A stretch of DNA of 64,000 nt from Vibrio cidicii (GTDB lineage: Bacteria > Pseudomonadota > Gammaproteobacteria > Enterobacterales > Vibrionaceae), in NCBI RefSeq assembly GCF_009763805.1, contig NZ_CP046803.1, positions 682,001 through 746,000 of the forward strand, written 5' to 3'. The notes below the pieces were generated by a model. That model worked only from the letters and a program-made list of their open reading frames with translations, had not been told where the DNA came from and made no database searches. Positions 52,804-61,719 of this stretch are shown piece after piece. The first letter of the stretch is position 1; every line of letters begins with the position of its first letter. The position numbers and the translations under genes are program-made.

Positions 52804-54420
<1,617 letters not shown>

Positions 54421-54430
54421 TCAAAAATCA

Positions 54431-54721
54431 TTACTCAACAATTGCCAACACATCTGATTCAGAGAGAATCAGATACTCTGTGCCGTCAATTTTTTCGCTT
54501 TTCACGCCATAACCGTCGTTGAAAATAATTTGCTCACCCACTTTGACATCCATCGCCGCGCGCTCACCATTTTCCAGACGTTTACCAGCGCCCACCGCAA
54601 TCACCTTGCCGCGGTTTGACTTTTTCACCGATTGAGCAGTGAGAACAATTCCCCCTTCAGATTTGTTTTCCACCTCTTGTCTCTCAACAATTAGCTTGTC
54701 ATTTAAAGGACGAATATTCAT
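54431..54721 (-). CDS. groS2: Co-chaperonin GroES, second copy
   Basis: 96 aa, usual length. [14 protein letters not shown], the mobile-loop region [18 protein letters not shown] and [13 protein letters not shown] are GroES landmarks. It caps the GroEL2 ring. First gene of the groESL2 operon, behind a sigma32-type promoter. Confidence 0.95.
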
Positions 54722-54980: not shown

Positions 54981-56003
54981 TCAGAACAGATTCAAACCAA
55001 ACACACCGCGGACATCGATAAGCACTTGCGCAGTTTTCTCTTGCGCAATCTGGCTGCCCAAGCGCAGTATCTCAATCAACTGTGCTTTGTCATCCAAGTA
55101 ACACTGGCGGCGCTCGCGGATCGGTTTGAGCAGCTCTTGTAAACACTCTTCCAGTATTTTCTTGGTCGTACCATCGCCCAGACCACCGCGCTGATACTGC
55201 TCTTTCAACTGAGCGACATAGGCATGATCGGGATGAAAAGCATCCAGATAAGTAAACACCACGTTGCCTTCGATTTGCCCCGGATCGTCAACGCGTAAGT
55301 GGTTAGGATCGGTGTACATCGATTTGACCGCCGCGCGGATCTCTTGCTCACTGGCACCAAGATTGATGGCGTTACCCAAGGATTTAGACATCTTGTTTTT
55401 GCCATCAGTGCTGGGTAAACGCGGCGCATTGCTCAGCAGCGCACGACACTCAAGCAGCACCTCGCTTCCTGCCAGGCTGTTGATCTTGCGTACAATTTCG
55501 TTAGTTTGTTCCAGCATCGGCAGTTGATCGTCTCCCACAGGAACCAGCGTGGCGCGAAACGCGCTGATGTCAGCCGCCTGTGAGATCGGATAGGTCAAAA
55601 AGCCCGCTGGAATGGAACGGCCAAAGCCTTTGCTGTGGATCTCATTTTTCACTGTCGGGTTTCTTTCCAAGCGGGCGATGGAAACGAGATTGCTGTAATA
55701 CATGGTCAGCTCTGCCAACGCGGGCAATTGCGACTGCAAACAGATGGTGGTTTGCTGAGGATCAATGCCCACCGCCAAGTAGTCGGCGACCACATTCAAA
55801 ATATTGCTCGACACCTTCTCCGGTTGATGGGCGTTATCGGTCAGCCCCTGCATATCGGCTACTAAAATGGTCTGCTGATGAATGCTTTGCAGCGCGACGC
55901 GCTGTTGCAACGAGCCGACATAGTGACCAAGGTGCAGCGGCCCTGTGGCTCTATCGCCGGTTAAAATGGTTTCGCTTTGGGTTTCAGTTTGTGTTGTTTG
56001 CAT
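54981..56003 (-). CDS. trpS2: Second tryptophanyl-tRNA synthetase (TrpRS2)
   Basis: 340 aa class Ic synthetase. HIGH-type motif in GPLHLGHYVGS (about residues 21-31), tryptophan-pocket region DMQGLTDNAHQ, PVGDDQLPMLEQTNEIVRKIN, and the KMSKS loop KMSKSLGNAI. It charges tRNA-Trp. It diverges from the housekeeping TrpRS pattern (for instance VSIARLERNPTVKNEI where many have AYQLARMTQFKD), as accessory TrpRS copies do. Its leader has a tandem-Trp peptide and hairpins, so expression probably responds to Trp-tRNA charging. Confidence 0.92.
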   Translation of the reverse strand: MQTTQTETQSETILTGDRATGPLHLGHYVGSLQQRVALQSIHQQTILVADMQGLTDNAHQPEKVSSNILNVVADYLAVGIDPQQTTICLQSQLPALAELTMYYSNLVSIARLERNPTVKNEIHSKGFGRSIPAGFLTYPISQAADISAFRATLVPVGDDQLPMLEQTNEIVRKINSLAGSEVLLECRALLSNAPRLPSTDGKNKMSKSLGNAINLGASEQEIRAAVKSMYTDPNHLRVDDPGQIEGNVVFTYLDAFHPDHAYVAQLKEQYQRGGLGDGTTKKILEECLQELLKPIRERRQCYLDDKAQLIEILRLGSQIAQEKTAQVLIDVRGVFGLNLF

Positions 56004-56037
56004 GAGTTATCTCCAAGTTAAAAGGACGCTACTGGAG

Positions 56038-56119
56038 ATAAAAAGAGAGTGATCTTTAGCTACCTTCCAGCAGCTAAAGAATGTAAGAATTCCGCGCCGC
56101 TCTAGAGAGAGCGCCACCA
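56038..56119 (-). promoter_or_regulatory. Candidate ribosome-mediated attenuator of trpS2
   Basis: On the minus strand, after two Trp codons (56114-56119): segment 1 CGCTCT (56108-56113) pairs with AGAGCG (56098-56103); segment 2 AGCGGC (56096-56101) can instead pair with GCTGCT (56069-56074), which overlaps the 5' arm of hairpin 3:4, CTTTAGCT / AGCTAAAG (56054-56079). A TTTTT run follows 9 nt after hairpin 3:4. The peptide's stop codon lies in segment 2. This is the geometry of trp-type attenuation; folding has not been computed. Confidence 0.58.
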
Positions 56120-56155
56120 GAAGAAAATAGACGTTGAGGCATTGATCATATTCAT
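56102..56155 (-). CDS. trpS2 leader peptide with tandem Trp codons
   Basis: 17 codons, MNMINASTSIFFWWRSL, ending TAG. Two adjacent TGG codons at 13-14, among few other codons, lie right before the hairpin region upstream of trpS2. A weak TTGCCG-N17-TAGTGT promoter lies just upstream. The ribosome-binding site is poor, so translation needs testing. Confidence 0.5.
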   Translation of the reverse strand: MNMINASTSIFFWWRSL

Positions 56156-56259
56156 AGCCAACGACACTAACAAGAATCGGTTGATGCGGCAAGTGCTTGT
56201 TTTTCGCATGTATACCGCATTCAAACCACAACAGCCGATTGGTTGGAGATGATCACCGT

Positions 56260-57314: not shown

Positions 57315-58884
57315 TTACGCCTTACCGACTTTAAACGACCCCGCATACTTATCCAGCGTTTGCGACAGCGCGGTTAAGGTTTTACTGGTTTCTTCCAGTT
57401 GCTGGCTAGCACTTAGCCCTTCTCTCACCGACTCATTGAGCGAGTCCATGTTCAAGTTGATCTCTTTCGTGACACTCGACTGCTGCTCGGTGGCGGTTGC
57501 GACTTGAGTATTGAGATCTAAAATCGAAGAGACTTGAGACGCGATAGTTTCTGATCGCCTGCTGCGCTTCGAGCGTGGCTTCTGCACCTTTGATAGTCAG
57601 CTCACGGCTGGCATTCATTGCCGCTACCGCACTTTTGGCTTCCGCCTGTAAATGGTCAATCATGGTCTGAATTTCACCCGTCGATTGCGCTGATTTAGTC
57701 GCCAGATTTCTCACTTCATCAGCCACCACCGCAAAGCCGCGCCCAGCTTCGCCAGCCCTTGCCGCTTCAATCGCCGCGTTAAGTGCCAGAAGGTTGGTTT
57801 GTTCGGAAATCCCGCGAATCACGTCGAGAATCGATTCGATCGATTGCGTTCTGTCCGCCAGCGCCATCACCACATTAGCGGTATTGTTCATTTCATCGGT
57901 TAAGTTGCTGATGGTTTCAGTGGCAAACTGCAATACCGCACTGCTGTTGGCCGTCTCTTTATTCACATTACCCGCCGCCTGAGCTGCACCGGCCGCATTG
58001 GTAGAAATTTCATTGATGGTCGAGACCATCTCATTCATCGATGTCACCACCAGTGTAGACTGCTCATTCTGCAAATCGCCGCGAGTCAGTGCTCGCACCG
58101 ACTGCTCACGCACTACATTGGCCGACTGATTGAGTTCGCTGCCGGTACGCACGACTTGCTGAATAATGTCATTGATTTTTGAGACAAAGGTGTTGAATGC
58201 GGTGGAAATATGGGCGATTTCGTCGTTGCCCTTAACGGGCAAGCGCATGGTTAAATCGCCGTCCCCCTGAGAAATATCTTCAAGCGCGGTTTGCAAACGA
58301 GTCAGAGGCTGGAACAGTTTGGTCATCAAGCCCGCCAACACCACAATACACAGCACGAACATACCGCAAGTTGTGGCTAATTGGGTGATGATGATGCCCA
58401 TCGCCGCCGAGTCGACTTCGGTGATTGGCACACCGATGTCTAACGTGCCGTAGAGTTGACCGTTAACATAAATCGGCGACATGATGTCGTAAGTCCACAC
58501 CTTCTGCACATCGGCATACCATTTCGAGTGCTGCACGACACCTTGTGTCGCGCCAAGCACCGTGTATTCATCTTTATAGACTTTATTGATTTTTTGCTTG
58601 TCACTGTGCGCGACCGCCGCCACATTTTTGTCGATAACAATCGCATAAGCGATGTCTGAACGCTGACTGAGCGTCGTCACCATCTCTTGCAGATCATCAA
58701 TCGGCTGCTTGGAATTTTCTAAAATGTACTCAGCGTGCAGAGCCATTTGTGACCCTTTCGCTTTCGAGTTAATCAAAATGACGTTATTGATCTCTTGGTA
58801 CGAGACATAAGACGTCGAGATGGCACTGGCAATCGCCGCCAGTGCGAACATAGCAACCACGACCGCTAAGATGAGTCTTTTCAT
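57315..58884 (-). pseudogene. Methyl-accepting chemotaxis protein with Cache-type sensor, frameshifted
   Basis: The restored product is 522 aa from ATG 58884 (GGAGGAAAT upstream). TM1 ([20 protein letters not shown]), an extracytoplasmic single-Cache-like domain (about residues 30-165, KSMKA-like then [20 protein letters not shown]), TM2 ([19 protein letters not shown]), HAMP, and the signalling tip [32 protein letters not shown]. Extra base at 57548-57550: coding CAGAAACTAT should be CAGAACTAT, giving [18 protein letters not shown]. Ligand unknown; inner membrane. Confidence 0.9.
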
Positions 58885-59269
58885 ATTTCCTCCTGCCTCA
58901 CTCACTTCACTGTGCAGAGATAGCAAGGCAAACAACATTATTTGAAAGAATTGCGTGCTTGACGATAAATTCAGTACCAACAAAGCAAAACAGTCATCCC
59001 GACTATCGGCAGAAAATTGTTGATCAAAACTGAGTTAACGCACTAAATTTTAACATATAAAATCTTACAAATTAGACATCAATCTTGTGGAATGGGGGGA
59101 CTTAGATCTCATTGTGATAAAAGAGTATCGATAGACCAAATAGGGTTTCTCTGTTCTAAAGCAAACCGCACGTATTAAGTAACCCAAGTCTCGTGCATGT
59201 CGAAATTATTCAATACTGGCTCGACGCGAAAAGCTATTGTGTATTTCACAACCACAGAGGAGAAATACA
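58885..59269. other. Intergenic region, MCP and AhpD-like promoters
   Basis: 385 bp, no supportable gene. The left part must contain the MCP promoter and the right part that of the AhpD-like gene; GAGGAG precedes its ATG. Nothing else seen. Confidence 0.5.
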
Positions 59270-61097: not shown

Positions 61098-61172
61098 GTA
61101 AAACGTAATACCAATATGTTTTACGGTTAGATCTTCGAGTCATTTAACTCCTTGCTTAAATTGAGAAAATTG

Positions 61173-61208
61173 GAGATCCCGCCATCACTAGGCAACAGGC
61201 GAGATCTC
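61173..61208 (-). terminator. Terminator after the cold-shock gene
   Basis: Minus strand: GAGATCTCGCC / GGCGGGATCTC, two stem blocks with a bulge, then AATTTTCTC, 10 bp past the csp stop. Confidence 0.65.
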
Positions 61209-61218
61209 ACAAAAACGC

Positions 61219-61431
61219 TTATAGAACAGTAACGTTAGCCGCTTGTGGGCCTTTGTTGCCTTGTTCGATACTGAAAGATACTTTTTGACCTTCAGCTAGA
61301 GTTTTGAAACCGTTGCTTGTGATAGAACGGAAGTGAACAAACAGATCAGCACCACCGTTATCTGGAGTGATAAAGCCAAAACCTTTAGTTTCGTTAAACC
61401 ATTTAACTAGGCCAGTTGTATTATTTGACAT
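61219..61431 (-). CDS. CspA-family cold-shock protein
   Basis: 70 aa OB-fold protein. RNP1 KGFGFITPD and RNP2 DLFVHF are intact, along with the N-terminal [15 protein letters not shown]. It binds single-stranded RNA/DNA as an RNA chaperone. The preceding 288 bp contain no other gene and could include a long 5' leader, as in cspA, but I see no firm cold-box. Cold induction is therefore not shown. Confidence 0.92.
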
Positions 61432-61719
61432 ATGAATCTCGATAAATTAATTAAATTAAAAAATGAAGCTACTAAGGGAGGAATGAAGAAAAAGGTATCG
61501 CAGGATGAATATGACAAATGAAATCAATAAAACTGAGAAGATCTTGAACTATGTATTCTTTTTAATAGCTCGCTACTTGAGCTGACGCCACTATACACTA
61601 AGTACGTACAATAGATATCTATTTCTTACTTTATTTTTAAAATCCAACATAATCAATAAGTTAAATTCAATCCCTACGGCGCTGGCAAACATTGAACGAA
61701 TACCTTAGGGCCAATTGAC

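Follow-up and report, generated by a model that had tools for sequence, protein, structure and literature searches.

The region upstream of trpS2, an auxiliary tryptophanyl-tRNA synthetase (TrpRS) gene in the window (the whole stretch of 64,000 nucleotides of DNA analysed here), probably represents a genuine and conserved Trp-codon attenuator of an accessory TrpRS gene with a translational readout. We regard it as likely that this cis-acting element is read mainly at translation and makes the auxiliary TrpRS inducible by a lack of charged tRNA-Trp. The sequence-only reading of the locus, which saw a Trp-codon leader and alternative hairpins in front of the gene, is partly confirmed: the layout and its conservation hold, the terminator-like stem does not. 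The elements of the locus, in the direction of transcription, are the following:

56164..56192, minus strand: predicted sigma-70 promoter, -35 TTGCCG (56192-56187), 17-nt spacer, extended -10 TGT-TAGTGT
56102..56155, minus strand: leader ORF, MNMINASTSIFFWWRSL with UAG stop, 17 codons, ending W-W-R-S-L, start putatively near-leaderless
56108..56117, minus strand: segment A (segment 1), overlapping the Trp codons; partner B, in the minimum-energy fold
56089..56103, minus strand: segment B (segment 2), AGAGCGGCGC plus GAAU; partner A or C
56066..56082, minus strand: segment C (segment 3, hub strand), AUUCUUUA plus GCUGCUGGA; possible partners B, D and E
56053..56064, minus strand: segment D (segment 4); partner C, hairpin 56080-56053, no U run directly after it
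56028..56040, minus strand: segment E, UAUCUCCAGUAGC, strand opposing the Shine-Dalgarno sequence (anti-SD strand); partner F or C
56008..56015, minus strand: segment F, UGGAGAUA, Shine-Dalgarno (SD) region of trpS2; paired with E in the minimum-energy fold
54981..56003, minus strand: trpS2, auxiliary tryptophanyl-tRNA synthetase, 340 aa, ATG at 56003, motif ADMQGLT

The 17-codon frame with adjacent Trp codons claimed in the sequence-only reading is present on the minus strand (56155..56102), and the gene that begins after a gap of 98 nt is indeed a second tryptophanyl-tRNA synthetase gene. UGG UGG lies close to the 3' end of the leader ORF. The stop codon falls within segment 2 as described, namely at the 5' edge of segment B, where its last two bases double as the first two of B. 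The stems are mutually exclusive, with B pairing to A or C and C pairing to B, D or E. Folding of the leader, which that reading had proposed as a check, yields -48.3 kcal/mol for the 157 nt 5' of trpS2, compared to a mean of -35.5 for dinucleotide shuffles (z -3.4; 1 of 200 shuffles as good). The minimum-energy fold consists of three successive hairpins, A:B at the Trp codons, C:D, and E:F. In the last of these, UAUCUCCA (56040-56033) pairs with UGGAGAUA (56015-56008), and the SD region of trpS2 is sequestered in this fold. The range covered by the earlier reading stopped at 56038, which left F and the greater part of E outside.

The product of trpS2 is a class I synthetase (Pfam tRNA-synt_1b; TIGR00233 above cut-off), and its nearest solved relatives are 1yi8 (E 6e-111) and 2a4m (1e-110), the latter carrying the name TrpRS II and being, as we take it, the Deinococcus radiodurans enzyme. 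The motif ADMQGLT displays a Gln where the genome's other TrpRS has His (DLHAIT). This Gln is found in all 80 trpS2 loci retained (the best 80 of 411), in the forms ADMQGLT (65), ADLQGLT (13) and ADIQGLT (2), and its position is presumably equivalent to His43, which is relevant to indolmycin resistance. The genome has a second trpS besides trpS2, of which the N-terminal part lies in one frame and the rest in another (L082, about 1345-1520). This frame break may be an assembly error. A methyl-accepting chemotaxis-like protein in the window (57315-58983) is likewise split into two overlapping frames, which makes assembly indels the likely cause of both breaks. If the break in the second trpS is real, the genome would have no intact TrpRS gene other than trpS2. 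Elsewhere in the window, trpS2 is immediately followed on its own strand by a groES-groEL pair (named by eye; 52804-54721), and a match to the cspA thermoregulator (61169-61586, minus strand) reaches 77.7 bits, just below the gathering score of 78 bits.

Contigs were scanned for orthologous trpS2 loci, and in 79 of the best 80 of 411 a Trp-Trp leader ORF is found upstream of the gene; conservation of the Trp codons in relatives, which the earlier reading had named as a check, is hereby observed. According to the record titles, these loci belong to Vibrio, Photobacterium, Alteromonas, Paraglaciecola, Shewanella, Pseudoalteromonas, Colwellia, Motilimonas, Cocleimonas and Amphritea as well as to MAGs called Thiotrichaceae and Desulfobacterium. 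The exception is L025, which has no leader and whose upstream sequence (1-198) seems unrelated to that of the other 79 loci. The window, these 79 loci and 35 leaders from further genomes and plasmid records form a set of 115 ATG-started leaders, which includes some close relatives, and related rows inflate all counts. The leader L166 (GTG start) and the loci L083-L096, L100, L101, L103 and L106 stand outside this set; the latter group was checked separately for a Trp-Trp leader.

The 115 leaders are 15-24 codons long. In 89 of them WW is followed by three more codons before the stop. The stop codon starts 1-7 nt 5' of the B motif in 113 leaders, with an overlap between the two in 81. The residues that follow WW are not constant (RSN, CCS, LPS, HSLL, CRF and others), and the N-terminal parts of the peptides show little likeness between families. 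All 77 aligned rows have UGGUGG, for which they were selected; in the A:B helix as used here, bases 1, 2 and 6 of this motif have no partner. Conservation extends to the Trp codons, to the place of the stop and to the complementarity of B with C, and this supports the sensing half of the sequence-only reading, in which a ribosome stalled at the Trp codons would cover segment 1 and free segment 2.

The start of the leader transcript can be approached through the promoter. A TAnnnT box ends 6-8 nt 5' of the ATG in 102 of the 115 leaders (at 6 nt in 72), whereas mononucleotide shuffling of the 60 nt upstream produces 11.7 such leaders on average and never more than 19; a TTG stands at -35 in 100 of these 102, so that the layout TTG-N16-18-TAnnnT-N6-8-ATG applies to 100 of the 115. 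An SD-like 4-mer precedes the ATG in 5 of the 115 leaders, for which an ATG start was the condition of inclusion in this tally. Both the promoter spacing and the scarcity of SD-like motifs are as in leaderless mRNAs. The position of the -10 box would place the transcription start at or next to the AUG, and the leader would then be translated from a leaderless or near-leaderless end, with which the poor ribosome-binding site, counted as a weak point in the earlier reading, agrees. The window itself is a weak example: its -10 box TAGTGT (56169-56164) lies 8 nt from the leader ATG, and with a score of 8.2 it is the second-best promoter-like match, the best (11.3) being located inside the leader. 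The sole GTG leader, Proteus L166, has a purine-rich stretch upstream (AAGGAAAG, AAGGA).

The steps that we infer are stalling, formation of B:C ahead of C:E, leaderless initiation and translational readout, and the course of events would be as follows. Transcription would start at the leader AUG or a few bases from it, and ribosomes would load on the leaderless or near-leaderless end. With plentiful Trp-tRNA, the ribosome would reach the stop codon at B and cover B, C would pair with D, E would pair with F, and trpS2 would hardly be translated. With Trp-tRNA in short supply, the ribosome would stall at UGG UGG and cover A, leaving B free to take C ahead of D while the UGGA of C stays open. 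E, emerging before F, would subsequently pair with C over nine bases from the UGGA toehold and displace B; as E is then held by C, it could not close on F, and trpS2 would be translated. In lineages with a U-rich tail after C:D, premature termination would perhaps act as a first gate.

Substitution patterns bear on both states. Our alignment A1 contains 77 of the 80 available rows, leaving out L018, L033 and L079, which are identical or nearly identical to L014, L031 and L069. The C:E helix, formed by GCUGCUGGA of C with UCCAGUAGC of E, is paired in 96.2% of the cells of A1, and five of its nine pairs, with 50 cells, are changed on both sides. The shuffle tests ignore relatedness and the covariation figures are to be read as indications rather than probabilities: none of 500 shuffles is as high as C:E on pairing, two-sided pairs, two-sided cells or score, while 350 of 500 are as high on further pair types. 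Slid controls of the same helix are 13.6-66.3% paired. The OFF set (A:B, inner C:D and E:F) is paired in 95.4% of cells; two-sided changes affect 38 of its cells (0 of 500 shuffles) and six of its pairs (24 of 500). Within the inner C:D, one pair is broken in 25 rows, A:B is paired in 98.8% of cells with two of nine pairs changed on both sides, and E:F is kept in 93.9%. The five-pair core of B:C is paired in all 77 rows with weak covariation, i.e., a single cell changed on both sides and 268 of 500 shuffles as high. Row L070 has A instead of G as its hub base (column 71), and the pairing with its B, D and E partners is intact. Covariation of C:E and of the OFF helices is an observation in the same way as the layout, the conservation and the promoter spacing. 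Of the conserved or covarying stems by which the sequence-only reading proposed to judge itself, B:C is kept with little covariation. C:E covaries and is an alternative helix that would compete with the sequestering E:F.

Outside A1 the picture is less uniform. Among 39 further, more divergent loci a contiguous C:E helix is found at p<=0.05 in 12 and fails in 27, and a contiguous E:F helix is significant in 9 and fails in 30; the automatic choice of C:D was poor for some of these loci (e.g., L142, L155, L167). Neither C:E nor E:F passes the contiguous-helix test in the Aeromonas-like rows, for which only mismatched helices can be drawn, and the minimum-energy folds of L109 and L111 pair the SD via helices with a mismatch. 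The translational gate has good support in loci close to the window and less in remote ones, where a terminator may matter more.

The energies of forced states were compared in 18 hand-picked loci with the first 13 nt masked to represent the stalled ribosome. C:D is the best state in 10 of these, C:E in 7 and B:C in 1; the values in the window are -28.3 for C:D with E:F, -25.9 for C:E and -23.7 for B:C. In transcripts ending at D, C:D is better than B:C in 15 of the 18 loci (B:C in 2, one tie), so that B would have to win by timing. When the transcript stops at E and F does not yet exist, C:E is the best state in 6 of 18 loci including the window (C:E -20.9, B:C -19.8, C:D -18.3). Full-length folds with C:E forced still pair 0-4 of the 4 SD bases, and 3 of 4 in the window. 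A clean switch was not obtained from the fold energies of these 18 loci, window included, and most Vibrio-type leaders among the rows listed did not flip upon masking of A or A+B, for which reason the order B:C then C:E is put forward conditionally, as a kinetic relay. Equilibrium folding of this kind proves neither the presence nor the absence of a switch. A pairing of B with the E-F loop, as in the fold of L005, was considered and dropped, since it is absent from the other folds shown.

The nature of the output can be examined independently from that of the sensor. The sequence-only reading assigned the output to a transcription terminator, formed by a last stem with a trailing U run. The 8 nt after the C:D stem in the window contain 3 U, and the terminator-like character of this stem is not borne out. 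A U run at a distance from the stem, which had been listed as a weak point, does exist and sits in the linker before the anti-SD strand E. A U-rich tail (>=5 U among the 8 nt that follow the strongest stem) is present in at most 36 of 100 leaders and is missing in 64, where 36 is an upper figure because some of the passing stems are not the C:D hairpin (e.g., L066, L076). The script used for this purpose is rough and scored 100 of 101 leaders, L143 yielding no hairpin. A terminator output thus lacks support in the window and is not general in the family. What stands of the earlier interpretation is the sensing by Trp-codon stalling, while for the output SD sequestration fits better than a terminator, given the covarying anti-sequestor C:E and the kept E:F.

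Transcription attenuation as in the classical trp operon, with C:D as the terminator, B:C as the antiterminator and E:F as incidental, is in our estimation improbable. Segments A to D follow its 1-2-3-4 logic, including the place of the stop codon at segment 2, the U-rich tails of up to 36 loci and the strong GC hairpins in divergent Enterobacteriaceae-like, Aeromonas-like, Variovorax and Burkholderia loci would suit it, and a comparable case in Streptomyces is titled transcriptional attenuation. Against this, the tail is poor in the window and missing in the majority of loci, and a pure terminator leaves the kept and covarying E:F and C:E near the window unexplained. Better placed, although still unlikely, is a relay in which C:D termination and E:F sequestration of the SD act as two gates in the same transcript, so that any leak past the terminator would also be silent. 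This overlaps with the explanation preferred here and differs from it in making termination general. U-rich tails and E:F do co-occur in part of the loci, and strand C would be common to both gates, but the window is without a U tail and such tails are restricted to a minority of loci.

Two further alternatives concern the leader itself. Nascent-peptide arrest is exemplified by TnaC, and an arrest of this type, sensing free tryptophan or an inhibitor instead of relying on codon stalling, might be suspected from the similar peptide ends in close relatives (WW then RSN in 22 of 115 leaders). The residues after WW are variable, however, the N-terminal parts are little alike between families, and the leaders are short; on account of the peptide variability we set this explanation aside as very improbable. 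Least probable of all, to a degree that we hardly reckon with it, is a chance ORF in a conserved structured 5' UTR, in which RNA pairing forces the Trp codons. Part of UGGUGG does lie inside the A:B stem, but its unpaired bases 1, 2 and 6 are invariant in the 77 rows (selected for UGGUGG), the length of the leader and the position of its stop are conserved, and Trp-Trp leaders recur in divergent loci with other stem sequences.

The distribution of the element was surveyed with an RNA model (R1) at E<=0.01. The model matched 29 of the 295 genomes sampled from the order and 7 of the 299 sampled from the phylum; in the class sample 1 of 369 matched, the window's own genome alone, which indicates that R1 misses more divergent leaders. 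Divergent leaders without an R1 match were located through the trpS2 protein. Among 30 distinct R1 matches, 29 precede a trpS2-type gene (59-100% identity), all of these with an ATG-started Trp-Trp leader, one runs off its contig, and none precedes any other gene. The trpS2 protein was found at E<=1e-60 in 49 of the 295 genomes of the order, of which 28 have an R1 match, 16 more have a Trp-Trp leader and 5 have no leader. Fourteen of the 16 leaders missed by R1 belong to a single Aeromonas-like family (f25); this label, as well as Enterobacteriaceae-like (f19), was inferred from likeness to plasmid records.

Two trpS genes are present in all 44 leader-bearing genomes of the order sample, against a single trpS in four of the five genomes without a Trp-Trp leader (G186, G285, G028 and G050; G163 has two), and the leader accordingly goes with the auxiliary status of the gene. 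There are few such counter-cases; three of them, G028, G050 and G163, are distant at 44-56% identity, and the completeness of G285 is 79%. In G186 and G285 the trpS2-type gene is the sole trpS; a short frame with one Trp precedes it in the former (L138), and an E- and F-like stretch is retained in the latter (L130). Within the genus of the window the element occurs in 7 of 21 sampled genomes and is therefore accessory.

In a plasmid collection, tblastn detected trpS2-like genes in 91 of 72,556 records, some of them chromosome-sized. Ten of the 91 records were examined, and 8 have a Trp-Trp leader (L159-L164, L166 and L167): two E. coli plasmids, where the locus lies beside IS26/IS1 and IS3000, a small Salmonella record, chromosome-sized Klebsiella and Proteus records, and records of Salinivibrio, Variovorax and Burkholderia. 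The other two of the ten, from Acinetobacter and Rhizobium, carry a trpS2-like gene without a Trp-Trp leader.

The sequence-only reading knew of no described case for a gene of this type, which is wrong, as Trp leaders before trpS are on record in Streptomyces (PMC1262725, PMC8079986). In S. avermitilis a trpS2 attenuator has been predicted (PMC1262725), and trpL2 before trpS in S. lividans is reported to be leaderless with one Trp codon (MMTRTCTQLWRAA), two hairpins and no uridine-rich stretch downstream (PMC8079986). Ribosome-mediated transcriptional attenuation of an auxiliary antibiotic-resistant TrpRS gene is the subject of Vecchione and Sello (2010, J. Bacteriol., as cited in PMC4787780). 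As far as these sources go, the Streptomyces trpS/trpRS1 attenuators resemble the present one in having a Trp leader peptide before a trpS gene, auxiliary and antibiotic-resistant by the 2010 title, and, for trpL2, a leaderless start; they differ in the single Trp codon of trpL2, in the transcriptional mode named in the 2010 title, and in belonging to Actinobacteria, compared to Trp-Trp and Proteobacteria here. The leader transcript of trpLE(G) in Sinorhizobium meliloti starts at the ATG of the Trp leader ORF (PMC7298713), and trpL is thus leaderless as is proposed here, but the gene is a biosynthesis gene and the attenuation, by that account, is one of transcription. In Caulobacter crescentus, ribosome profiling revealed a small leader CDS before trpS that is alike in position, the accessible part of the source giving no mechanism (PMC4117421); apart from it, no proteobacterial trpS attenuator was found in the open-access PMC literature. 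The main text of PMC2965389, in its accessible portion, does not name trpS, and auxiliary TrpRS together with indolmycin appears in PMC9437257, PMC6804068 and PMC5069768. The sensing principle is hence already known, whereas the open-access literature searched yielded no account of the proteobacterial family, of its relay with SD sequestration or of its mobility.

With the trp operon attenuator (Rfam RF00513, Trp_leader) the trpS2 leader shares Trp codons in a short leader, here in tandem, the exclusive 1:2/2:3/3:4 pairings and a stop codon at segment 2. It differs in the extra segments E and F and in the U run adjacent to a 3:4 terminator, which the window does not have and which was seen in no more than 36 of 100 loci. 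Membership in RF00513 was rejected, as the covariance model found no match at the locus (locus search at E<=5, whole-genome search at E<=1); the same model matches the genome's own trp leader with 64.8 bits and scores 29.7 bits on the Aeromonas-like L145, under the gathering score of 41 bits. The own trp operon leader (L169) is a second Trp attenuator of the same genome and of classical type; read by eye, its 5' UTR is longer and contains AAGG, a palindrome (ACTAGTTAACTAGT) lies upstream, and the terminator is clear. A TrpR-like palindrome, searched with the pattern of that leader at up to 3 mismatches, had no match near trpS2. A T-box before trpS2 was likewise rejected, given the lack of an Rfam match at the locus at E<=5.

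Among translational attenuators, those of the erm and cat type are induced by drugs, and the stall of the leader ribosome releases a sequestered SD. The trpS2 leader has the corresponding parts, a sequestered SD (E:F) and a competing helix (C:E), and the release of the SD by a stall would be alike; the sensing of an amino acid through codons, as proposed here, and the genes served are different. The E. coli pheST attenuator, with the pheM leader, resembles the trpS2 leader as an amino-acid leader before an aminoacyl-tRNA synthetase gene, and is unlike it in preceding the sole PheRS genes and in its transcription terminator.

Taken more broadly, and somewhat tentatively, the trpS2 leaders could represent a mobile and self-contained sensor of tRNA charging in Proteobacteria, in which a leaderless Trp leader is combined with a hub strand that would pair with the B segment and then with the anti-SD strand, so that one stall would open translation and, where a terminator exists, also transcription, the whole being kept with a second-copy enzyme and carried on plasmids. 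The presence of trpS2-like genes with the leader on plasmids of Enterobacteriaceae suggests that the switch may explain a low cost of such genes until a TrpRS inhibitor or a shortage of Trp is encountered. The family offers a natural alignment for direct tests of codon stalling, hairpin exchange and SD exposure. It would connect leaderless translation with amino-acid attenuation in Gammaproteobacteria, and it shows a possible way in which a spare synthetase may be kept silent until the charging of Trp-tRNA fails.
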